Below, piece after piece: positions 5,120-64,000 of a DNA stretch of 64,000 nucleotides. The notes beneath the pieces were generated by a model, which ran no database searches, was not told the origin of the DNA, and saw only the letters and a list, made by a program, of their open reading frames with translations. The DNA lies in the NCBI RefSeq assembly GCF_007671685.1, contig NZ_VCNL01000004.1, forward strand, positions 186,001 to 250,000, in the 5' to 3' direction. The translations under genes were made by a program, and so were the position numbers. Within the stretch, counting starts at the first letter, position 1; every line of letters begins with the position of its first letter. The stretch is from Halorubrum salsamenti. Its GTDB lineage: Archaea > Halobacteriota > Halobacteria > Halobacteriales > Haloferacaceae.

Positions 5120-7360
5120 ATGGCGAGTGCCCTCGACGAGGATACCCAGCAGTCGCTCGCGGACGGACGCGAGTCGGCGAAGGCCTTCCTCCGGTCGGTT
5201 CAGAAAGACCTCCAGAAGGTGTTCGTCGTCTTCCTGTTGGGCTTTCTCGCGACGTTCTGGGCGCTCCGCGTGTTCATCTGGGACCGGCTCAGAGCGATCA
5301 CCGAGTCGAACATGAACGCCGCGGTCGCCGCCGAGACGGACGTGATCGCCACCACTCCGTTCGAGGTGATCCTCCTACAGGCGAAGATCGGGCTGATCGT
5401 CGGCGTGATCTTCGCGATTCCGCCCTTCATCTACGTCGCCCGCGACGAGCTTCGTGCCCGCGGGGCGTGGCCGCAGTCGCCGATCGCGCGCTGGAAGCTC
5501 GCGGGAATAGGACTCCTCGGGGCCGGACTGTTCACGGTCGGCGTCGCGTACGGGGTCTACGCCTTCTTCCCGATCATGTTCTCCTTCCTGGCCGGCTTCG
5601 GGCTGGAGGCCGGGCTCCAGCCCACCTACGGGATCGTGATGTGGACGGAGTTCATCGTCTTCCTCTCGCTCTCCTTCGGTCTCGCCGGGCAGATGCCGCT
5701 TCTCATCACCGGGCTCTCCTACTCGGGTATCGTTCAGTACGAGACGTTCCGCGACAAGTGGCGCTACGCGGTCGTCGCCATCTTCGTCTTCGGTGCGGTG
5801 TTCTCCCCGCCGGATCCGTTCACCCAGCTGATGTGGGCGTTCCCGCTCATCGTTCTGTACGGCTTCAGCCTCTACCTCGCGAAGCTCGTCGTCACGGCCC
5901 AGCGGAGCTCCGACCGGATCGACGTGCTCGGTGCGGCCCGGAACCACTGGAACGTGGTGGGTGGCGCGGCCGTCCTCGGCGGCGGACTCGTGTACGCCTT
6001 CTACGAGTACGGCGGACGGACCGCCGTCAACGACTTCCTCCGGCTCGTCAACAGCGACTGGCGCTTCCTCGAACCCGGCGCGGGGCTCGGCACCGACCCC
6101 GCGACGGCGGCCGGGATCTACGCCGCCGCGTGGGCGCTCGCGTTCGTGGCCGTCGCGACGCTGTGGGCCGTCTACGCCGACCTCGACACGACGAGCGCGG
6201 GGTACCAGTACGGCGACCCGACCGCCATCGACGTGAGCGACCTCGACGCGGCCGGCGTCCGCGCCGCTCCGGACGACGCGTTCGCGGAGATGGACGAAGA
6301 GGAGTCGCTCGCGCTGGCGCAGGCCGCGCTCGACGACGACGACCCCGAGAAGGCGCAGGCGATCCTCGACCGGTTCGACGCAGTACACGGCGAGGACGGT
6401 GACGGCGAGGGCGCCTCCGACGCCGACGCGGCGGGGACCGGCGGCGGGGCGGGCGGCTCTGGCGGCGCCGGTGGCTCCGGCGACGACGGCCTGATGGGAA
6501 CCGTTCAGGACCGCACCTCCCGTGCGAGCTCCACGTTCCTCTCCGAGCTCACCGACGGCGACGAGGACGAGGCCGAAGACGACATCGGCGGCTACTACAA
6601 GGATCTCAGGTTCATCTTCGACTCGCTGCGGTCGCGGTCGTTCCGGCTCGTCGCCGTCTTCGGCGGCGTGATGGCGGCCGCGTTCACGTGGCTGTACCTC
6701 GGCGGGCTCGCGACGGTGCGCAACGACCTGGAGTCGCGCGTTCCGGCCGAGATCGAGGGCGGGATCAACATCATCACGCTCCACCCCGTCGAGGCGCTGA
6801 TCTTCATGGTGAAGTTCTCCGTCCTGCTCGGGATCGTCGCCGTGTTCCCGGTCGCGCTCTACTACGCGTGGCCCGCCCTGCGAGAGCGCGGCTTCGTCGC
6901 CGGACGCATCTACCAGGTGTACCTCTGGGCGGGCGCGCTGTTCGCCGGCCTGATCGGCGGCTTCGCGCTCGGGTACGCCTACATCGCGCCCGGGATCATC
7001 GGGTGGCTCGTCACCGACGCCAAGCTGGCGGACATGATCATCACCTACCAGGTGAGCGACTTCCTCTGGCTCGTCGTCTACACCACCGTCGGGATCGGCT
7101 TCCTCGCGGACATCCCGATCGCGATGCTCCTGTTGAACAACGCCGGGGTCCCGTACCGCGTCTTCCGGACCCGCTGGCGCGAGGTCGTCGTCGCGATCAT
7201 GCTGTTCGCGGCGGTGTTCACCCCCGCCGACGTGATCACGATGATCCTCGCGACGCTCCCGCTGATGGCGGCGTACGGTATCGGTATCGGCGTCCTGTTC
7301 CTCGTCACCTTCGGCGGCCGGCGGAACCTCTCGCCGCCCTCGGAGCTCGTCGGACGCTGA
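5120..7360 (+). CDS. tatC2: Fused double TatC translocase (TatCt-type)
   Basis: A 746-residue membrane protein with two TatC-like halves. Half one covers roughly residues 30-275, followed by two extra hydrophobic segments and a Gly/Ser/Asp-rich linker near 420-460; half two starts around residue 495 and ends near 730. Each half has a cytoplasmic-loop arginine-rich start and the conserved SPPDP / TPADV region before the final segments. Such 14-segment fused TatC proteins are known as TatCt in haloarchaea, where they are essential for Tat export. The ATG at 5120 lies 25-30 bases after a TATA-like box; an upstream in-frame TTG at 5090 would add ten residues. Confidence 0.95.
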   Translation: MASALDEDTQQSLADGRESAKAFLRSVQKDLQKVFVVFLLGFLATFWALRVFIWDRLRAITESNMNAAVAAETDVIATTPFEVILLQAKIGLIVGVIFAIPPFIYVARDELRARGAWPQSPIARWKLAGIGLLGAGLFTVGVAYGVYAFFPIMFSFLAGFGLEAGLQPTYGIVMWTEFIVFLSLSFGLAGQMPLLITGLSYSGIVQYETFRDKWRYAVVAIFVFGAVFSPPDPFTQLMWAFPLIVLYGFSLYLAKLVVTAQRSSDRIDVLGAARNHWNVVGGAAVLGGGLVYAFYEYGGRTAVNDFLRLVNSDWRFLEPGAGLGTDPATAAGIYAAAWALAFVAVATLWAVYADLDTTSAGYQYGDPTAIDVSDLDAAGVRAAPDDAFAEMDEEESLALAQAALDDDDPEKAQAILDRFDAVHGEDGDGEGASDADAAGTGGGAGGSGGAGGSGDDGLMGTVQDRTSRASSTFLSELTDGDEDEAEDDIGGYYKDLRFIFDSLRSRSFRLVAVFGGVMAAAFTWLYLGGLATVRNDLESRVPAEIEGGINIITLHPVEALIFMVKFSVLLGIVAVFPVALYYAWPALRERGFVAGRIYQVYLWAGALFAGLIGGFALGYAYIAPGIIGWLVTDAKLADMIITYQVSDFLWLVVYTTVGIGFLADIPIAMLLLNNAGVPYRVFRTRWREVVVAIMLFAAVFTPADVITMILATLPLMAAYGIGIGVLFLVTFGGRRNLSPPSELVGR

Positions 7361-7505
7361 CGGGCGCCGGGGCCGTCCGCCGTCACAGTCGTCCGCGTGC
7401 CGTTCGCTCGTCTTTCCGCCAGCGCCGCAGACCGGTCTTCCCGCCAGCGGCCCAGACCACCGAGACCGACGGGTATTCCCGCGCGCGCACGCAACAGAGG
7501 GCAAG

Positions 7506-10457
7506 ATGAGCAAGGACTACATCGAGGTCCGCGGCGCCGAGGAACACAACCTCAAGGACCTCGACGTCCGGATCCCGCGCGAGGAGTTCACCGTCGTCAC
7601 CGGGCTCTCCGGGTCGGGGAAGTCGTCGCTCGCGTTCGACACGGTCTACGCCGAGGGACAGCGCCGGTACATCGAGTCGCTGTCGGCGTACGCCCGCAAC
7701 TTCCTCGGGCAGATGGACAAACCGCAGGTGGAGGCCGTCGAGGGGCTCTCGCCCGCTATCTCCATCGACCAGAAGAACGCCGCGAACAACCCCCGCTCGA
7801 CCGTGGGCACCGTCACCGAACTGCACGACTACCTCCGGCTGCTGTACGCCCGGATCGGTACCCAGTACGACCCCGTCACCGGTGAGGAGGTCGGCGAGCA
7901 GTCTGCACAGGACATGGTCAACCAGATCCTCGAACTGCCCGAGGGGACCCGCGCGAAGGTCGCCGCGCCGGTCGTCCGCGACCAGAAGGGCGCGTTCGAG
8001 GACCTGTTCGAGGAGCTCGTGAGCGACGGGTACGCCCGCGTCGAGGTCGACGGCGAGCCGATCGACCTGACCGTAGACGACCCCGGCCTCGACGAGAACT
8101 ACGACCACACCATCGACGTGATCGTCGACCGCGTGACCGTCTCGCCCGACGCCCGCTCGCGGATCACGGACTCCGTCGAGACCGCCTTGGAAGAAGCGGG
8201 CGGCGCGCTCAAGCTGATCGTCCCCGACCCGCCCGAGGACGTGCCGTTCGCCTCGAACGCGCGCTCGACCGGGTCGCTCGCGGCGGACGCCGACGCCGAC
8301 GACCGGCTCGTCGTCGAGTTCTCCGAGGAGCTCGGCAACCCCAACTCCGACGTGCAGTTCTCGGCGATCGAGACGCGCTCGTTCTCCTTCAACAGCCCCT
8401 ACGGCGCCTGTCCCGAGTGCGAGGGGATCGGCTCGACGAAGGAGGTCGACGAGGGCCTCGTTATCGAGGACCCCTCGAAACCCCTCAAACACGTCTTCGA
8501 GCCGTGGAGCTACGACCGCACCTACTACTCCCGTCAGCTCGACAACGTCGCCGACCACTTCGGCGTCTCGCTGGACACGCCCTTCGAGGAGTTAGACGAG
8601 TCGATTCAACGGCAGTTCCTCTACGGCACCGACGATCTGGTCCACTTCGAGTGGACCACGAAGAACGGAACCCGCGAGAAGACCGAGCGCTTCGAGGGCG
8701 TCATCCCGAACTTAGAGCGCCGCCACGTCGAGACCGACTCCGAGCGCGCCCGCGACCACATCGAGGAGTACATGGCCGTGACGACCTGCCCCGAGTGCGA
8801 GGGCACCCGCCTGAAAGAGCAGTCGCGGCACGTCCTCGTGGGGGACACCGCGATCACCGCGGTGAACGAGATGTCGATCGCGGAGGCGCGCGAGCACTTC
8901 GAGGGGATGGAGGCGGAACTGACCGAGCGCGAGACGACGATCGCGACGGAGATCTTAAAGGAGATCCGCGCGCGGCTCGGCTTCATGGAGGAGGTCGGCT
9001 TAGAGTACCTCACGCTCGACCGCGAGGCGTCGACGCTCTCCGGCGGCGAGAGCCAGCGCATCCGGCTCGCGACGCAGGTCGGCTCCGGGCTCGTCGGCGT
9101 GCTCTACGTCCTCGACGAGCCGTCGATCGGGCTCCACCAGCGCGACAACGACCGCCTGCTCGACACGCTCACCGGGCTGCGGGACCTCGGAAACACCCTC
9201 GTCGTCGTCGAACACGACGAGGAGACGATGCGCCGCGCCGACGAGATCATCGACATGGGGCCCGGCCCGGGCAAGCGCGGCGGCGAAGTGGTCGCGCAGG
9301 GCGACTACGACGACGTGATCGCCGCCGAGGACTCGATCACGGGCGACTACCTCGCGGGCCGGAAGGAGATCCCGGTGCCCGACGAGCGCCGCGAGCCGGA
9401 CTGCGAGCTGACGGTGCGCGGCGCCCGCCAGCACAACCTCAAGGAGCTCGACGTACCGATTCCGCTCGGCACGCTCACGGCCGTCACCGGGGTCTCCGGG
9501 TCGGGGAAGTCGACGCTCGTCAACGACATTCTTTATAAGGGCCTCGTCCGCGAGATGAACGACAACACCTCCGTCGATCCCGGCGACCACGACGCGATCG
9601 ACGGAATGGACGGGATCGAGACGGTGCGGCTCATCGACCAGTCGCCGATCGGCCGGACGCCGCGTTCGAACCCCGCGACGTACACGGACGTGTTCGATCA
9701 CGTCCGCGAGCTGTTCGCGGAGACAAAGCTCTCCAAGCGACGCGGCTACGAGAAGGGCCGGTTCTCGTTCAACGTGAAGGGCGGGCGCTGCGAGGAGTGC
9801 GGCGGTCAGGGGACGGTGAAGATCGAGATGAACTTCCTCTCGGACGTGTACGTCCCCTGCGAGGAGTGCGGCGGCGCCCGCTACAACGACGAGACGCTCG
9901 ACGTCACTTATAAAGGTGCGACCATCTCGGACGTGCTCGACATGAGCGTCGAGGAAGCGTACGACTTCTTCGAGAGCCATCGGGGGCTCCAGCGGCGGTT
10001 GAAGCTCCTGAAGGACGTCGGACTCGGCTACATGGAGCTCGGTCAGCCCTCGACCACCCTCTCGGGCGGCGAGGCCCAGCGCGTGAAGCTCGCCGAGGAA
10101 CTCGGGAAGAAGTCGACGGGCGACACCCTCTACCTGCTCGACGAGCCGACGACGGGACTCCACAAGGAGGACGAGCGCAAGCTGATCGACGTGCTCCACC
10201 GCCTCGTCGACGCCGGCAACACGGTGGTCGTCATCGAACACGAGCTCGACTTGGTGAAAAACGCCGACCGCGTGATCGATCTGGGCCCCGAGGGCGGCGA
10301 CGGCGGCGGCGAACTCGTCGCGAGCGGGACCCCCGAGTCGGTCGCCCGCGAGGAGGATTCGCACACCGGCCGGTACCTCCGCGACATGCTCCCCGACGTC
10401 GACCTGGAGGGGCCGCGCGACGACCGCCGGAAGCCGGCGGTGGCCGACGACGACTGA
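7506..10457 (+). CDS. uvrA: UvrABC excision repair ATPase subunit A
   Basis: A 983-residue UvrA, the DNA damage sensor that loads UvrB in nucleotide excision repair. Two ABC ATPase halves are seen: Walker [10 protein letters not shown] at 33-41 and GVSGSGKST near 660, with signatures LSGGESQR and LSGGEAQR. Zinc-binding CPECEG and CEECGG pairs are present in both halves, as is the [15 protein letters not shown] hallmark. Length is usual. The C-terminus ends in an acidic tail. uvrB and uvrC are not in the window. The start follows a GAGGGC stretch five bases upstream that could act as a ribosome site. Confidence 0.98.
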
Positions 10458-58187: not shown

Positions 58188-59822
58188 TCAATCGTCCCCC
58201 TTGTAGACGAGCGCTTCGGCGAGCGAATCGGACTTACATCCCGTGCTCAGCCCGATACGGAGGCCGTTGTTGTCGGCACCGGTTCGGTCCCGTAGCGGTA
58301 GCAGATCGTCGAGAACCGACGCCGAGATCAGCATCGTCGAGATCGGCCAGGCCTTCGGCCCGAACTGGAGCGATTCTTCGAGAACGTCGCCGCGAACGCC
58401 CGGATCCGGAAGTCGGACGCCCTCGTCGGACGCGTAACCGCAGAACGCGACGCCGACGTCGGGAGTCCGTTCGAGTTGCGGGACCTGCGAGGAGAGCTTT
58501 TCGGGATGGAGCCGGTCGTCGTCGTCGAGCAGTTGGACGTGCCTCCCGTCGGCGATCTCGATACCGTGCGTTCGCGCCCGGTTTGCACCGCGTCGTTCGG
58601 TGTGCTCGACGTATTCCGTGTCATATCTCTCGGCGACCGGGCGCGCATTTCCGGTTCCGGAATCGTCGACGACGATGGTCTCGACCGGAGCGTAGCGCTG
58701 GTCCCGAACGCTTTCGATGGCCGTAGCGAGCCGTTCGTTTCGGTTGGACGTCGGGATAACGACCGACACGAGCGGTCCCGGTCGGGCACGCGAGCTGGGC
58801 GATTCCGCACCGCCAGCCGGCGGGATCTCACCGGAGTCTTCCGGTTGCCGGGGAGAGGTCTGATCGCCGTCAACCGAAGGGCCGAACGCCGTTTCAGCCG
58901 GAGAAAGGGCGCCTCCGCCGGCGCCCGAATCGGACGCTTCCTCGGGCGGGTTGGGTTTCGTCCGATCGTCGGTTACCGTCAGCCATGGAACTGTCACGAG
59001 AGCCGGTGTCCGGATCCCCGGCGGATGACCGAACAGCCTGACCGGGAACGGAGCGACGACTTCGCCGACGTGGTTCCCGTGGTCGGAGGTGACGACGATC
59101 CTCTCATCCAACGCGTCGATGAGCTCCTGCACGTACGGCAGCACGAGCCAGAGATTCTCTTCGTACGCCTGTCGGACGCGCTCGGTCGAGTAGGCACCGT
59201 CGCGGAGTGCGTCCCAGACCGGCCGTTCGTCGGCGTCGGAACTCTCCCCCTCTGCGCGCCGTTTCCCCCGCATCCGACCGTGAGCGAGACGCTTGCCGAG
59301 CGGACCGATAAACGGGTAGTGCGGCTGCACGAAATGCGTGATGATCCGGTGGTCGGGGTACCGATCACGCGCCGCTTTGGTTGCGGAGGCCATCGCCGCC
59401 GGCGGGAGCGTCCCGAGGCCGTCGTCCCAATCGGTCTCCCAGACATCGACGATGTCGTGAAAGACATCGTCAAGGTCGACGGGACACCAGTCGTCGACCC
59501 GGTGCATCGGGTTCGCTGTTACGTAGACGGTGTCCTCGTAGGTCTTCCCGTCGAACGTCCGTTCCAGAAACTGCGGTGTTGCGGTCGCGAGCGAAGTTCG
59601 GGCGGACAAGTCGCCGTCGATCCAGTTCTGTCGTTCGAACATATCGAACCGACAGCCGTCCAAGATGACCAGCAGGTCCCACTCCTCGGTCATAACGTCG
59701 CGGCCCGAGGGCGTTCGCCACGAAAAGTACGTTTCCATCGCCAGTTGGATCCCGATTCCGACTGGACGCGGGAGGAAGTCGACGCCGAGGGGTCGGAGCC
59801 GACGGCGGGTCTTTTTGTTCAT
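58188..59822 (-). CDS. Fusion of alkaline-phosphatase-like domain and GT2 glycosyltransferase
   Basis: A 544-residue protein. Residues about 45-285 form an alkaline-phosphatase/sulfatase-superfamily fold: LVILDGCRFD at 51-60, THFVQPHYPF at 162-171 and VVTSDHGNHVGE at 243-254 supply metal ligands. Residues 286-349 are a Pro/Glu/Ser linker. Residues 350-544 form a GT2 glycosyltransferase: VVIPTSNRN, IVVDDSG, and a DDDD acidic motif at 433-436. Compared with the related enzyme at 62113, about 90 C-terminal residues are missing. The start overlaps the upstream gene by four bases (ATGA). It probably modifies surface or exopolysaccharide chains (inference). Confidence 0.82.
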   Translation of the reverse strand: MNKKTRRRLRPLGVDFLPRPVGIGIQLAMETYFSWRTPSGRDVMTEEWDLLVILDGCRFDMFERQNWIDGDLSARTSLATATPQFLERTFDGKTYEDTVYVTANPMHRVDDWCPVDLDDVFHDIVDVWETDWDDGLGTLPPAAMASATKAARDRYPDHRIITHFVQPHYPFIGPLGKRLAHGRMRGKRRAEGESSDADERPVWDALRDGAYSTERVRQAYEENLWLVLPYVQELIDALDERIVVTSDHGNHVGEVVAPFPVRLFGHPPGIRTPALVTVPWLTVTDDRTKPNPPEEASDSGAGGGALSPAETAFGPSVDGDQTSPRQPEDSGEIPPAGGAESPSSRARPGPLVSVVIPTSNRNERLATAIESVRDQRYAPVETIVVDDSGTGNARPVAERYDTEYVEHTERRGANRARTHGIEIADGRHVQLLDDDDRLHPEKLSSQVPQLERTPDVGVAFCGYASDEGVRLPDPGVRGDVLEESLQFGPKAWPISTMLISASVLDDLLPLRDRTGADNNGLRIGLSTGCKSDSLAEALVYKGDD

Positions 59823-60712
59823 GCGAGAGATCGCTGTCGCGAAGCGCCGTCTGTGGGTTGATCCGAGACGTCTCGGAGGTCCGGATGGTCGGTACCAGGA
59901 CGCTCACCGTCGGCCACGGCGCGGCAGGTCCGCAGCCAACCGGCGTGGCGCACGAGGAAGGCCACGGGCACCGCGTCAAGTTCGAGCAGTTTGGCGATGC
60001 AGAGCCGATGTTTCCCGCTGACGAGCAGCAGTTCGCCGTCTCGCCCGACGTCGACGATGATCTCGCGCTCAAGCGCGTCAATGAAGTTCCCGTCGCGATC
60101 ACGGGGCGCGGTCCGCTCTCGATAACTCAGACAGCCGTTCCGCTCCATACTCCGATGGATCCGCTCCAGTTCCCCGCACCGATCGAGGACGTCAGATCGG
60201 GTCTGACAGTCGTGCCAGACGTACTCAGCGCCGTCTTCGAGGCGAGCAATGACGTCTCGGATAAACCGCGTTTCCGTCCACGGTCGGTCGTCGAGAAAGC
60301 GGGCACGAAGCGCCCGGTACAGCGGACTCTCGGCGACGGTGTCGGCGTGGAAGAGCTCCTCCGGTGGGCCGCCGTAGGTCGGTGCGGCCTCATGTGGGCG
60401 CCGATCCCAGTCGCCGTCCCGAACGCTCCCGAACAGCTGGTCCCGGTTCCGCCACGGGGGGTAACACCGCCGCGTGAACCGGCGTATCCGGGACGGAGAG
60501 ACCGATCGGATCTTGAACGGGTCCGACAGCGGCGTACTCTCGTCGAGATCGGTCGGGTATCGTCGCCGGTAATAGGATGGAGCGACAGACCAGTAGACCG
60601 ACTTCGTCAGTGGCGACGCGAGCGGACTTCGAAGGAGGACGTACTCCGATCCGAGACGACAGGTCCCCTTGACTCCTCGATCCGCGTACACGTCAGCGAT
60701 CGCTCCAAGCAT
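59819..60712 (-). CDS. Unknown protein with ParB/Srx-like C-terminal segment, coupled to the fusion glycosyltransferase
   Basis: A 297-residue protein with many aromatic and arginine residues. Residues about 205-255 (REIIVDVGRDGELLLVSGKH then RLCIAKLLELDAVPVAFLVRH) match the strand-GxHR-helix pattern of ParB/sulfiredoxin-like folds, which bind nucleotides. Its TGA overlaps the ATG of the phosphatase/glycosyltransferase fusion. Proteins of this look occur in haloarchaeal glycan regions, but no activity is established. The function is unknown. Confidence 0.65.
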   Translation of the reverse strand: MLGAIADVYADRGVKGTCRLGSEYVLLRSPLASPLTKSVYWSVAPSYYRRRYPTDLDESTPLSDPFKIRSVSPSRIRRFTRRCYPPWRNRDQLFGSVRDGDWDRRPHEAAPTYGGPPEELFHADTVAESPLYRALRARFLDDRPWTETRFIRDVIARLEDGAEYVWHDCQTRSDVLDRCGELERIHRSMERNGCLSYRERTAPRDRDGNFIDALEREIIVDVGRDGELLLVSGKHRLCIAKLLELDAVPVAFLVRHAGWLRTCRAVADGERPGTDHPDLRDVSDQPTDGASRQRSLA

Positions 60713-61075
60713 CTCCCGGCACGTAGCGTACGAGACGTATTGTTAGTACCACTGTAACGGAGTTATATCCGATGTAAGATGCTGTCGAGGCCCGCAACGT
60801 ACGCGACGCGTTCACGTCGATCCTCCCGCGCCGCCTCGGTCCCGGCGGACCTCCGTCGGAAGAGGCCGGGTCGCATTCTTATTAACTTATTAATAATATA
60901 TGGAAACCGAGAATCACGTGAGCGTAATGATTCGCACGAGTCCGACGGACCGAGTCGATCCCGTCGAGGGGCCATCCGAGAGAGAACTCTTACCGGCGAG
61001 ATCGTCTACGCCCGGAGGTGCGTTCCGATACAGTTCGCTACCGGACGGAGAGCGGCTCGAAGGGTGTGAGCCGCC
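60713..61075. promoter_or_regulatory. Intergenic A/T-rich region in the glycan cluster
   Basis: About 360 bases between divergent genes. The segment TTCTTATTAACTTATTAATA (60877-60896) followed by ATATATGG is far more A/T-rich than its surroundings and could hold promoters for both directions. Each would have a long leader (about 150-170 bases), unlike most genes here. A 63-codon frame starting at 60900 is not convincing. GTTATATCC near 60761 may be a closer minus-strand promoter. Confidence 0.45.
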
Positions 61076-61996
61076 ATGGAACCGAATATGAGGGGCGAGA
61101 CGGTGGCCGAGCCCGTCAACGAGTTAGACGGGAAGGTGACGGCGGTACCGCCTATTGGACTCGGAACGTATCGAACCGGAGGGTACAAGTGCTTTAACGC
61201 CGTTCTGGAGGCTCTCGAGGTCGGCTACCGTCACGTTGACACCGCGATGGCGTACGAGAACGAGGCCGTCGTCGGCCGCGCAATCGAGGCCTCAACGGTC
61301 GATCGCGAAGCCGTGTTCGTCACGACCAAGGTGAAGGGATACGCAGAGTTCTTGGACCGCGATCGACTGACCGAGGCGGTTGAGGGTTCGCTCAAGCGGC
61401 TCGGGATGGATCGAATTGACCTCGTGTTGCTCCACTGGTGGAACCCGGACGGGGACATGGTGGAAGTGTTCGGGGCGCTCTCCGATCTCGTGGAGGACGG
61501 GAAAGTAACCCACGTCGGGGTCAGTAATTTCTCGACCGAGCAACTCGCGCGGGCGATGGACGCTTCCGAGGTCCCGATAGCGACCAACCAAGTCCAGTAC
61601 AACCCGTACTTCCATCAAGACGAGATGCTCTCGTTCTGTCGGGAGCACGACGTGCTGCTGACGGCGTACAGCCCCCTCGCCGCCGGTACCGTCGTCGACG
61701 ACGAGACGCTCACACGGATCGGCGAACGGTACGGGAAGTCGGCCGCACAGGTCGCCCTCAGGTGGCTCGTCCAGCAGGACGGCGTGGTCACGATCCCGAA
61801 GACGACGAGTTCGGACCGTCTGCGGGAGAACCTCGACCTGTTCGACTTCGAACTCACGAACGCCGAGATGGATCGGATCCACGACCTCGAGGGCCCGCTC
61901 TCGTTCCGGCTGACCAACGATCGAGGAGCCGTAACTCGGTTTCGGTCCGCCGTCGGCCCGTACGTGCCGAAGGAGATCCGGGACATGATCCCGTGA
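61076..61996 (+). CDS. Aldo/keto reductase
   Basis: A 306-residue (beta/alpha)8 NADPH-dependent oxidoreductase. The catalytic tetrad is complete: D55 and Y60 in HVDTAMAY, K85 in TTKVKG and H120 in LLHWWNP. NADP-binding signature IPKTTSSDRLREN is near 240. Length fits. The ATG at 61076 is used; another in frame at 61088 is possible. It lies beside glycosyltransferases, but its substrate cannot be predicted. Confidence 0.93.
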   Translation: MEPNMRGETVAEPVNELDGKVTAVPPIGLGTYRTGGYKCFNAVLEALEVGYRHVDTAMAYENEAVVGRAIEASTVDREAVFVTTKVKGYAEFLDRDRLTEAVEGSLKRLGMDRIDLVLLHWWNPDGDMVEVFGALSDLVEDGKVTHVGVSNFSTEQLARAMDASEVPIATNQVQYNPYFHQDEMLSFCREHDVLLTAYSPLAAGTVVDDETLTRIGERYGKSAAQVALRWLVQQDGVVTIPKTTSSDRLRENLDLFDFELTNAEMDRIHDLEGPLSFRLTNDRGAVTRFRSAVGPYVPKEIRDMIP

Positions 61997-62112
61997 ACGC
62001 CGTCCCACCGGTTACCGTTCGACATCCGCCACCACTGCGGCCCGACCCGCTATTTCGCGTTTTTATCTGTTTGTACGGTCTTAACAATAATCCCACGCGG
62101 CAAGGAACGTGT

Positions 62113-63042
62113 ATGCCTCCGAAGATATCTGTCATCATTCCGACCTACTATCGGAACAATCTCCTCCCGAAGGCGATCGAGAGCGTCCTCGACCAGGACT
62201 ACGAACCGATCGAGCTGATCGTCGTCGACGACTCCGGAGAGGGGCACGCGGAGCCCGTGATACAGAGGTACGACGAGGTCCAAGGTATCATTCACGAGGA
62301 GAACGGCGACTGGAACGCGGCCTACACGTCCGGGATCGAGGCGTCGACAGGCGAGTACGTTCAGTTCCTCGACGACGACGACGAACTCCTCGAGAGTAAG
62401 TTGACGAAGACGGCCGAGGTACTCCGAGAGAACCCGGACGTCGGGGTCTCGTACTGCGGCGTCATCAAGGGAGGCGAGCGACACTACCCGAAGCCGAAGG
62501 TGTCGGGCGACTTCTTAGAGGAGGCGCTGGCCTTCCAGACGTTCCCGATGTGGACGGGATCGATGCTGATAGAGCGCGATGTCTTGCTCGACTGCCTGCC
62601 GCTCGCGGGAATGGATGAAGACGACGATCTCGGTATCGAGTTGGGCGACACCGACCTGAAGATCGAACTGGCCCGGCGGACGGAGGCCGACTACGTCGAC
62701 GAGTGCCTCGCCGCGTATCGACAGGAGACGAACGGGAAATGGACCGGTCCCCGGCGATTCGAGAAGGTGAAACAGAACATCGAACACCAGCGCGAACTGT
62801 ACGACCAGTATCCGTCGATCCGGCGGGAACTCCTCGAGAACTGGCATCAGCGGCAGGCACGATACTGGCTCGAGGAGAAGACGTGGTCCGCCGAAGCGGT
62901 GTCTCACTTCCTGCAAGCCGCCTACTACGCGAACGGACTCACTAGTCGGTTGAAATGCGGAGCCGGAGCCGCAGCGTCCCTGTTCGGCCGGCCGGGCTGG
63001 AGCGTCGCCTGGGCGGTCCGGAACTCCGTCAGCCATAGCTGA
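62113..63042 (+). CDS. Family 2 glycosyltransferase
   Basis: A 309-residue GT-A enzyme. Motifs ISVIIPTYYRNN at 5-16, LIVVDDSGEG at 35-44 and the acidic motif DDDD at 87-90 (metal/sugar nucleotide) are visible, then a helical C-terminal part. It is a close relative of the second half of the fusion at 58188, including EESLxFxxx..WxxxSMLI spacing. It likely transfers a sugar to a lipid-linked or surface glycan. The long frame from 61762 overlaps the reductase and is not used. Confidence 0.92.
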   Translation: MPPKISVIIPTYYRNNLLPKAIESVLDQDYEPIELIVVDDSGEGHAEPVIQRYDEVQGIIHEENGDWNAAYTSGIEASTGEYVQFLDDDDELLESKLTKTAEVLRENPDVGVSYCGVIKGGERHYPKPKVSGDFLEEALAFQTFPMWTGSMLIERDVLLDCLPLAGMDEDDDLGIELGDTDLKIELARRTEADYVDECLAAYRQETNGKWTGPRRFEKVKQNIEHQRELYDQYPSIRRELLENWHQRQARYWLEEKTWSAEAVSHFLQAAYYANGLTSRLKCGAGAAASLFGRPGWSVAWAVRNSVSHS

Positions 63043-63102
63043 CGGCGTGGAGGAAGCGGTAACTCCGTATTAACAATTACTACACAGCGAAACCAGGATA
63101 CA

Positions 63103-64000
63103 ATGCCGGATATACCTCTCCGCGAGAAATTACACGGCCTCTATTTGATCGCGTCGTACAGACCGCGGTTCACCGCCGCGATCGTCGTGTTCAGCGTGTT
63201 GACCGCGCTGCTTGAGGGGATCGGTGTGACCCTGATCGTCCCGCTGATCGAGGTTGCTCAGTCGTCCGGAGCGCCGCCAGACGGCGGTATCGCCGGCGCC
63301 TTCGCACGCGTCTATCAGCTCTTCGGGCTCCCGTTCACGATCGGTTCCATCGTCCTCGGAGTCGGGGTGGTGCTCACCGTGAGATACACGTTCACATTCC
63401 TGACCCAGTGGGCGCGCGTGTATCTACGGACCAACTACGTCGCTGACCTCCAGTCTCGCGGGTTCGAGAACACCTTAGACGCTCGGATCGCCTACTTCGA
63501 CCGCGAGGGATCGGACGACATTCTCAACGCGATCGTCACGCAGGCACAGAAGGCCGGCGAGGCGATCGAGGCGTTCATTCGGGTGTTCCAGAGGAGCATG
63601 CTCATCCTGATGTACCTCGGAATCGCGCTGTACCTCGCTCCGGTCCTGACGGTCGTTTCGGCGGCCTTCGTTGGGCTCTTGACCTTCGGGCTGCGGAACA
63701 CCGTCGAGTCCGCGTACACTATCGGCGACCGCGTCGCCGAGGCCAACGAGCAGATACAGCGGGTCGTTCAGGCCGGCACGCAGGGCATTCGCGAGGTGAA
63801 GACGCTCGGATACGGCGCCGAACTGCGCGACAATTTCGCCGCGGCGATGGAGCAGTACATCGGCTCCTCGATCCGGGTGAAACGCAACGAGGCGCTGATC
63901 GGAAACGTGTACAACCTCTCGATCGCGTTGGTGATATTCGGGTTGATCTACGCTGCGCTCACGCTCACGAGCATGTCGTTCGGTGCGCTCGGGGCGTTCC
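63103..64000 (+). CDS. ABC exporter, transmembrane part (partial, runs off the window)
   Basis: The frame from the ATG at 63103 is open to the window end (299 codons), missing the ATP-binding half. It has hydrophobic segments at about 20-45, 80-108, 155-176, 178-195 and 268-290 with the intracellular coupling-helix sequence IQRVVQAGTQGIREVKTLG typical of type-1 exporters. Position after glycosyltransferases suggests export of a glycan precursor, but other substrates are possible. TATTAACAATTA about 30-35 bases upstream is a likely promoter. Confidence 0.85.
   Translation, partial: MPDIPLREKLHGLYLIASYRPRFTAAIVVFSVLTALLEGIGVTLIVPLIEVAQSSGAPPDGGIAGAFARVYQLFGLPFTIGSIVLGVGVVLTVRYTFTFLTQWARVYLRTNYVADLQSRGFENTLDARIAYFDREGSDDILNAIVTQAQKAGEAIEAFIRVFQRSMLILMYLGIALYLAPVLTVVSAAFVGLLTFGLRNTVESAYTIGDRVAEANEQIQRVVQAGTQGIREVKTLGYGAELRDNFAAAMEQYIGSSIRVKRNEALIGNVYNLSIALVIFGLIYAALTLTSMSFGALGAF

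Follow-up and report, generated by a model that had tools for sequence, protein, structure and literature searches.

A haloarchaeal fusion of an alkaline phosphatase-superfamily domain to a GT2 glycosyltransferase, with a probable decay of the GT2 half in Halorubrum

Introduction

In Halobacterium salinarum, the alkaline phosphatase (AP)-superfamily proteins Agl30 (VNG1056C) and Agl31 (VNG1057C) sulfate sugars of the N-glycan, as seen on deleting the genes and on expressing them in Haloferax volcanii (PMC11980604), and the N-glycosylation cluster of Halorubrum PV6 includes a gene for a 'sulfatase' (PMC6137143). Other relevant members of the superfamily are the phosphoethanolamine transferases EptA and MCR and the related LtaS, which are anchored in the membrane by N-terminal transmembrane helices and act outside the cytoplasm, and the family S1 sulfatases (e.g. 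choline sulfatase), which share the AP fold and carry the signature C/S-x-P-x-R. GT2 transferases such as AvpGT, SpsA and TarP are built on a GT-A fold with an acidic metal motif. A fusion to a GT2 domain is unreported for Agl30 and Agl31, and our literature search for papers naming an AP-GT2 fusion found none.

Here we describe such a fusion in a 64,000-nucleotide stretch of the Halorubrum salsamenti genome (hereafter, the window). The reading that we favour, with moderate confidence, is that of a glycan-modifying fusion protein with a working AP domain, whose GT2 partner is decaying in the window lineage.

Results

The gene (positions 58188–59822, minus strand) is an uninterrupted frame of 544 aa, running from an ATG start to a TGA stop, and is a genuine AP-GT2 fusion gene, real and conserved. 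As a sequence-only reading of the window had proposed, two folds share the frame: an AP-superfamily domain (residues 1–290; 58953–59822, minus), recognised by superposition of an AlphaFold model and by family profile matches, and a GT2 domain matching PF00535 at residues 353–470 (E=8e-25). The low-complexity linker described between them was also recovered (residues 291–349; 58776–58952, minus), the sequence being rich in Pro, Gly, Ser and Ala from about residue 289 to residue 349. The GT2 domain is divided into a nucleotide-binding part containing the DDDD motif (residues 350–466; 58425–58775, minus) and an acceptor part (residues 467–544 and the stop codon; 58188–58424, minus).

The same fusion is present in Halorubrum lipolyticum DSM 21995, at 82% amino-acid identity and with the same frame and stop position. 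Its neighbours are those seen in the window: a 297-aa upstream gene (59819–60712, minus), whose stop overlaps the ATG of the fusion by 4 bp in both species, a complete GT2 relative (309 aa; 62113–63042, plus), which served as the yardstick for the GT2 truncation, and an aldo/keto reductase gene (61076–61996, plus) located between both GT2 genes in the same order.

The assignment of the C-terminal half to GT2 follows from its GT-A nucleotide-binding domain with the metal motif LLDDDD (residues 431–436) and from a model that matches GT2 structures. While the GT-A fold and the acidic metal motif are common to AvpGT, SpsA and TarP, the window GT2 differs from these enzymes in lacking the C-terminal tail characteristic of its subfamily, in its altered acceptor part and in being fused to an AP domain. 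Compared to the complete relative at 62113, it ends about 100 residues early, which upholds the shortening noticed previously, and the missing tail is present in all other aligned GT2 relatives, bar the truncated pair. On the acceptor side, the GADD..xEL motif of the subfamily is altered to GADNNGLRIGLS in the window and to GADDGGLRIEPD in H. lipolyticum, with the conserved DD motif carrying D518N in the window. A search for a remnant of the lost tail 3' of the stop was unconvincing (in the window, a best score of 49 where shuffled sequences gave a 95% level of 45; in H. lipolyticum, 39 with a level of 46).

Differences between the window and H. lipolyticum were then counted at columns that are conserved in GT2 relatives. 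In the nucleotide-binding part, none of the 39 conserved columns had changed, versus 14 of the 78 variable ones (p=0.0045), while in the acceptor part changes affected 7 of 20 conserved and 10 of 54 variable columns (p=0.21), so that the two parts differ in conserved-column change (p=0.0002); all of these p-values are descriptive, the dividing residue having been set after inspection of the alignment, where the relatives' best match to solved GT2 structures ends. Most of the acceptor-part changes are seen in just one of the two species (window: D518N, A526S, F531S; H. lipolyticum: L525P, A526D and the loss of four residues). With a dN/dS of 0.54 (90% CI 0.26–1.00), the acceptor part is likely under relaxed constraint, short of proven full neutrality. 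This pattern suggests that the GT2 half of the window protein is probably no longer catalytic, or is on the way to becoming inactive, and that at most nucleotide-sugar binding is left.

Two other readings of the GT2 half have to be weighed. The protein might be fully bifunctional in the window, with a truncated GT2 that still works as a minimal GT-A sugar transferase and an AP domain that modifies its product. Consistent with this, the structure predicted for the truncated GT2 is that of an entire GT-A core (pLDDT 90.9) and matches SpsA and AvpGT, although the prediction owes much to relatives with an intact domain and would not show damage; in addition, the nucleotide-binding part is under constraint and the frame is open in two species. 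Nevertheless, the universal presence of the tail in the other aligned relatives, the D518N substitution and the free variation of conserved acceptor columns between the two species make this reading unlikely, if still credible. Alternatively, the remnant could be a non-catalytic sensor or docking module for nucleotide-sugars, steering or regulating the AP domain, as might be suspected from the sharp contrast between the constrained nucleotide part and the eroding acceptor part. However, a recent decay by which the nucleotide part has merely been spared so far could look alike, and just two truncated sequences exist; we consider this possibility rather improbable as well.

The favoured reading also supposes an AP domain that is still active. 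The AP half alone (residues 1–290) reached no Pfam cutoff (PglZ, E=0.03); the Sulfatase family PF00884 was matched weakly by 14 of 39 members of the AP family (best 1e-5), and the family profile matches choline sulfatase structures (E 5e-5). The AlphaFold model of the AP half, derived from 39 sequences (pLDDT 88.7), superposes best on EptA (PDB ID: 5fgn; Z 16.3, rmsd 3.0, 210 aligned residues, 13% identity), with MCR and sulfatases at Z of about 14–15; phosphoethanolamine transferases (Z about 15–16) are the top structural matches, slightly over the sulfatases (Z about 14). The modelled AP-type alpha/beta fold thus places the AP half in the alkaline phosphatase superfamily.

Residues D55, H168, D247, H248 and H266 are invariant or nearly so in the AP family and are kept in the window; judging from motif position, D55, D247 and H248, together with H168 and H266, are candidate metal ligands. 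T82, a position occupied by Thr or Ser in the AP family rows shown, is likewise a candidate nucleophile. The predicted Thr nucleophile and D-H metal ligands would correspond to those of EptA, MCR and LtaS, whereas the window AP lacks their transmembrane helices, is only 13–17% identical to these proteins and has Asp as the predicted first metal ligand. As for the S1 sulfatases, which resemble the window AP in fold and through the weak PF00884 matches across its family, their formylglycine signature is absent at the presumed AP nucleophile, where the window reads TATPQF and the relatives mostly SxTxEF. No transmembrane segment was detected in the AP-GT2 protein (highest 19-aa Kyte-Doolittle mean 1.14), and its product is best read as a soluble, cytoplasmic glycan-modifying fusion protein.

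For the AP domain, the comparison of the window with H. lipolyticum gives a dN/dS of 0.20 (90% CI 0.14–0.29) that never reached 1 in bootstrap, compared with 0.57 for the linker, indicating that this domain probably still works in the window. This bears on the reading of the whole gene as a decaying pseudogene, for which the GT2 truncation and the substitutions at conserved GT2 columns could be invoked. Given the constraint on the AP domain, the intact frame in both species and the retained 4-bp overlap with the upstream gene, we regard a pseudogene as very improbable. The doubt expressed earlier between a bifunctional and a degraded fusion was justified: degradation appears to apply to the acceptor and C-terminal part of the GT2, after the fusion, and not to the AP half or the nucleotide-binding part, which are constrained.

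Outside Halorubrum, a complete fusion of 616 aa was found in genome G326, which belongs to another haloarchaeal family. Its AP and GT2 domains are 58% and 62% identical to those of the window, in the same order and separated by a shorter linker, and its GT2 is complete, with the tail and the GADD..LRIEL motif intact. By eye, the G326 gene lies in a polysaccharide gene cluster with UDP-GlcNAc 2-epimerase-like and UDP-sugar dehydrogenase-like genes; no ParB-like neighbour was found there. The two-domain order sought in other haloarchaea thus exists in H. lipolyticum and in G326, and the fusion is not unique to one strain. That sequencing or assembly wrongly joined two genes, a reading for which we found nothing in favour, has a negligible probability, since a species sequenced independently shows the same frame and stop and a third genome has a related fusion.

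Altogether, three AP-GT2 fusions were found among roughly 520 genomes, in overlapping searches of the genus (52 genomes), the family (170), the family of G326 (146) and the order (392, evenly drawn), with one genome per species and only the best candidates scored, so that rarer fusions may have been missed. Further genomes, among them G090, G479, G491 and those of g32, also have long frames near AP or GT2 matches; these have the look of upstream extensions driven by GC and were rejected as AP-GT2 fusions. In plasmids, no place covered 80% of the AP-GT2 query.

Maximum-likelihood trees were built for each domain, and both place the three fusions in a single clade (support 100/99). Since they group together in both trees, they probably go back to one fusion event, after which the gene was inherited vertically or passed between families, and the loss of about 100 C-terminal GT2 residues would then have occurred in the window lineage, after the fusion. 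An LxxLGY tail ends 36 of the 37 stand-alone AP relatives and is absent from the fusions, where the variable low-complexity linker stands in its place and runs straight into the GT2 start, as would fit a junction immediately ahead of the AP tail. Separate AP and GT2 genes side by side, which had been suggested as something to look for, do occur: genus g4 (G057, G058) has them as a tandem pair, and other genera have them a few kb apart, these loci having been partly picked for that adjacency, so that no frequency can be derived. The g4 tandem pair was rejected as the direct ancestor on the basis of the trees, where its AP falls among the AP genes linked to ParB and its GT2 joins the window gene at 62113.

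The 297-aa upstream gene belongs to a family for which no Pfam match was obtained. Its GKHR motif and a weak, non-significant SbnI profile match (E=0.25) tentatively hint at a ParB/SbnI-like fold, and its relatives adjoin AP genes in at least four other haloarchaeal genomes. The complete GT2 (62113–63042) clusters with its counterpart from the g4 ParB-AP-GT2 locus, and an intact partner of that type hence lies about 2.3 kb from the fusion. Across positions 60000–64000, the G+C content, at first about 0.70, falls to about 0.61 towards the right end, which holds the glycan-type genes, resembling the edge of an island.

Discussion

In the scenario that we favour, a haloarchaeal AP-superfamily enzyme would have been joined, close to its C-terminal tail, with the beginning of a GT2 glycosyltransferase. 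In the complete version of the protein, the GT2 would add a sugar to a surface glycan under construction, and the AP domain would put a charged group on the same glycan or take one off. This complete version persists in G326, while the window lineage has a GT2 without its tail.

As for the group handled by the AP domain, sulfate transfer is the most likely role, by analogy with Agl30 and Agl31, and transfer of phosphate or of a phospho-head-group is possible. A glycan sulfotransferase is our leading guess because Agl30 and Agl31 sulfate N-glycan sugars, because a Halorubrum cluster contains a 'sulfatase', and because the window domain has no formylglycine signature and, like the transferases, a Thr at the presumed nucleophile. 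The slightly better structural match to phosphoethanolamine transferases than to sulfatases counts against this guess. With the two Halobacterium proteins it shares a haloarchaeal AP-like fold and a glycan gene context, and Agl31 is soluble, as is predicted for the window fusion, in which no membrane segment was found. Their C-termini, read from primers in PMC11980604 (LEDLGYL in Agl30 and LEELGYT in Agl31), resemble those of the stand-alone relatives of the window domain, whereas the window fusion has lost the LGY tail; the motif being weak and general, and the comparison relying on primer-read ends, the shared LxxLGY is a weak hint of a link.

Because fused enzymes tend to share a substrate, the complete fusion in G326 links the poorly understood AP-like enzymes of haloarchaea with one particular sugar-transfer step, and it offers a direct handle on the role of a large AP-like family in which few presumed members have been assigned a role by experiment. 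The window copy, in turn, is a case of stepwise enzyme loss from a fusion. More speculatively, and with little confidence, AP-GT2 might represent a type of haloarchaeal enzyme in which one polypeptide attaches a sugar and afterwards charges it with sulfate or a phospho-group, the GT2 having been reduced in Halorubrum to a nucleotide-sugar-binding guide of the AP domain.

Other arrangements of related genes were seen along the way. In the genus of the window, four to five paralogous AP-like genes lie within about 10 kb (G042:C1:868496–876329 and G016:C102, locus L103). Elsewhere, at positions 5870–9186 of locus L056 (G059:C8), two GT2 genes from the subfamily of the window GT2 form a tandem pair, and their long frames overlap.
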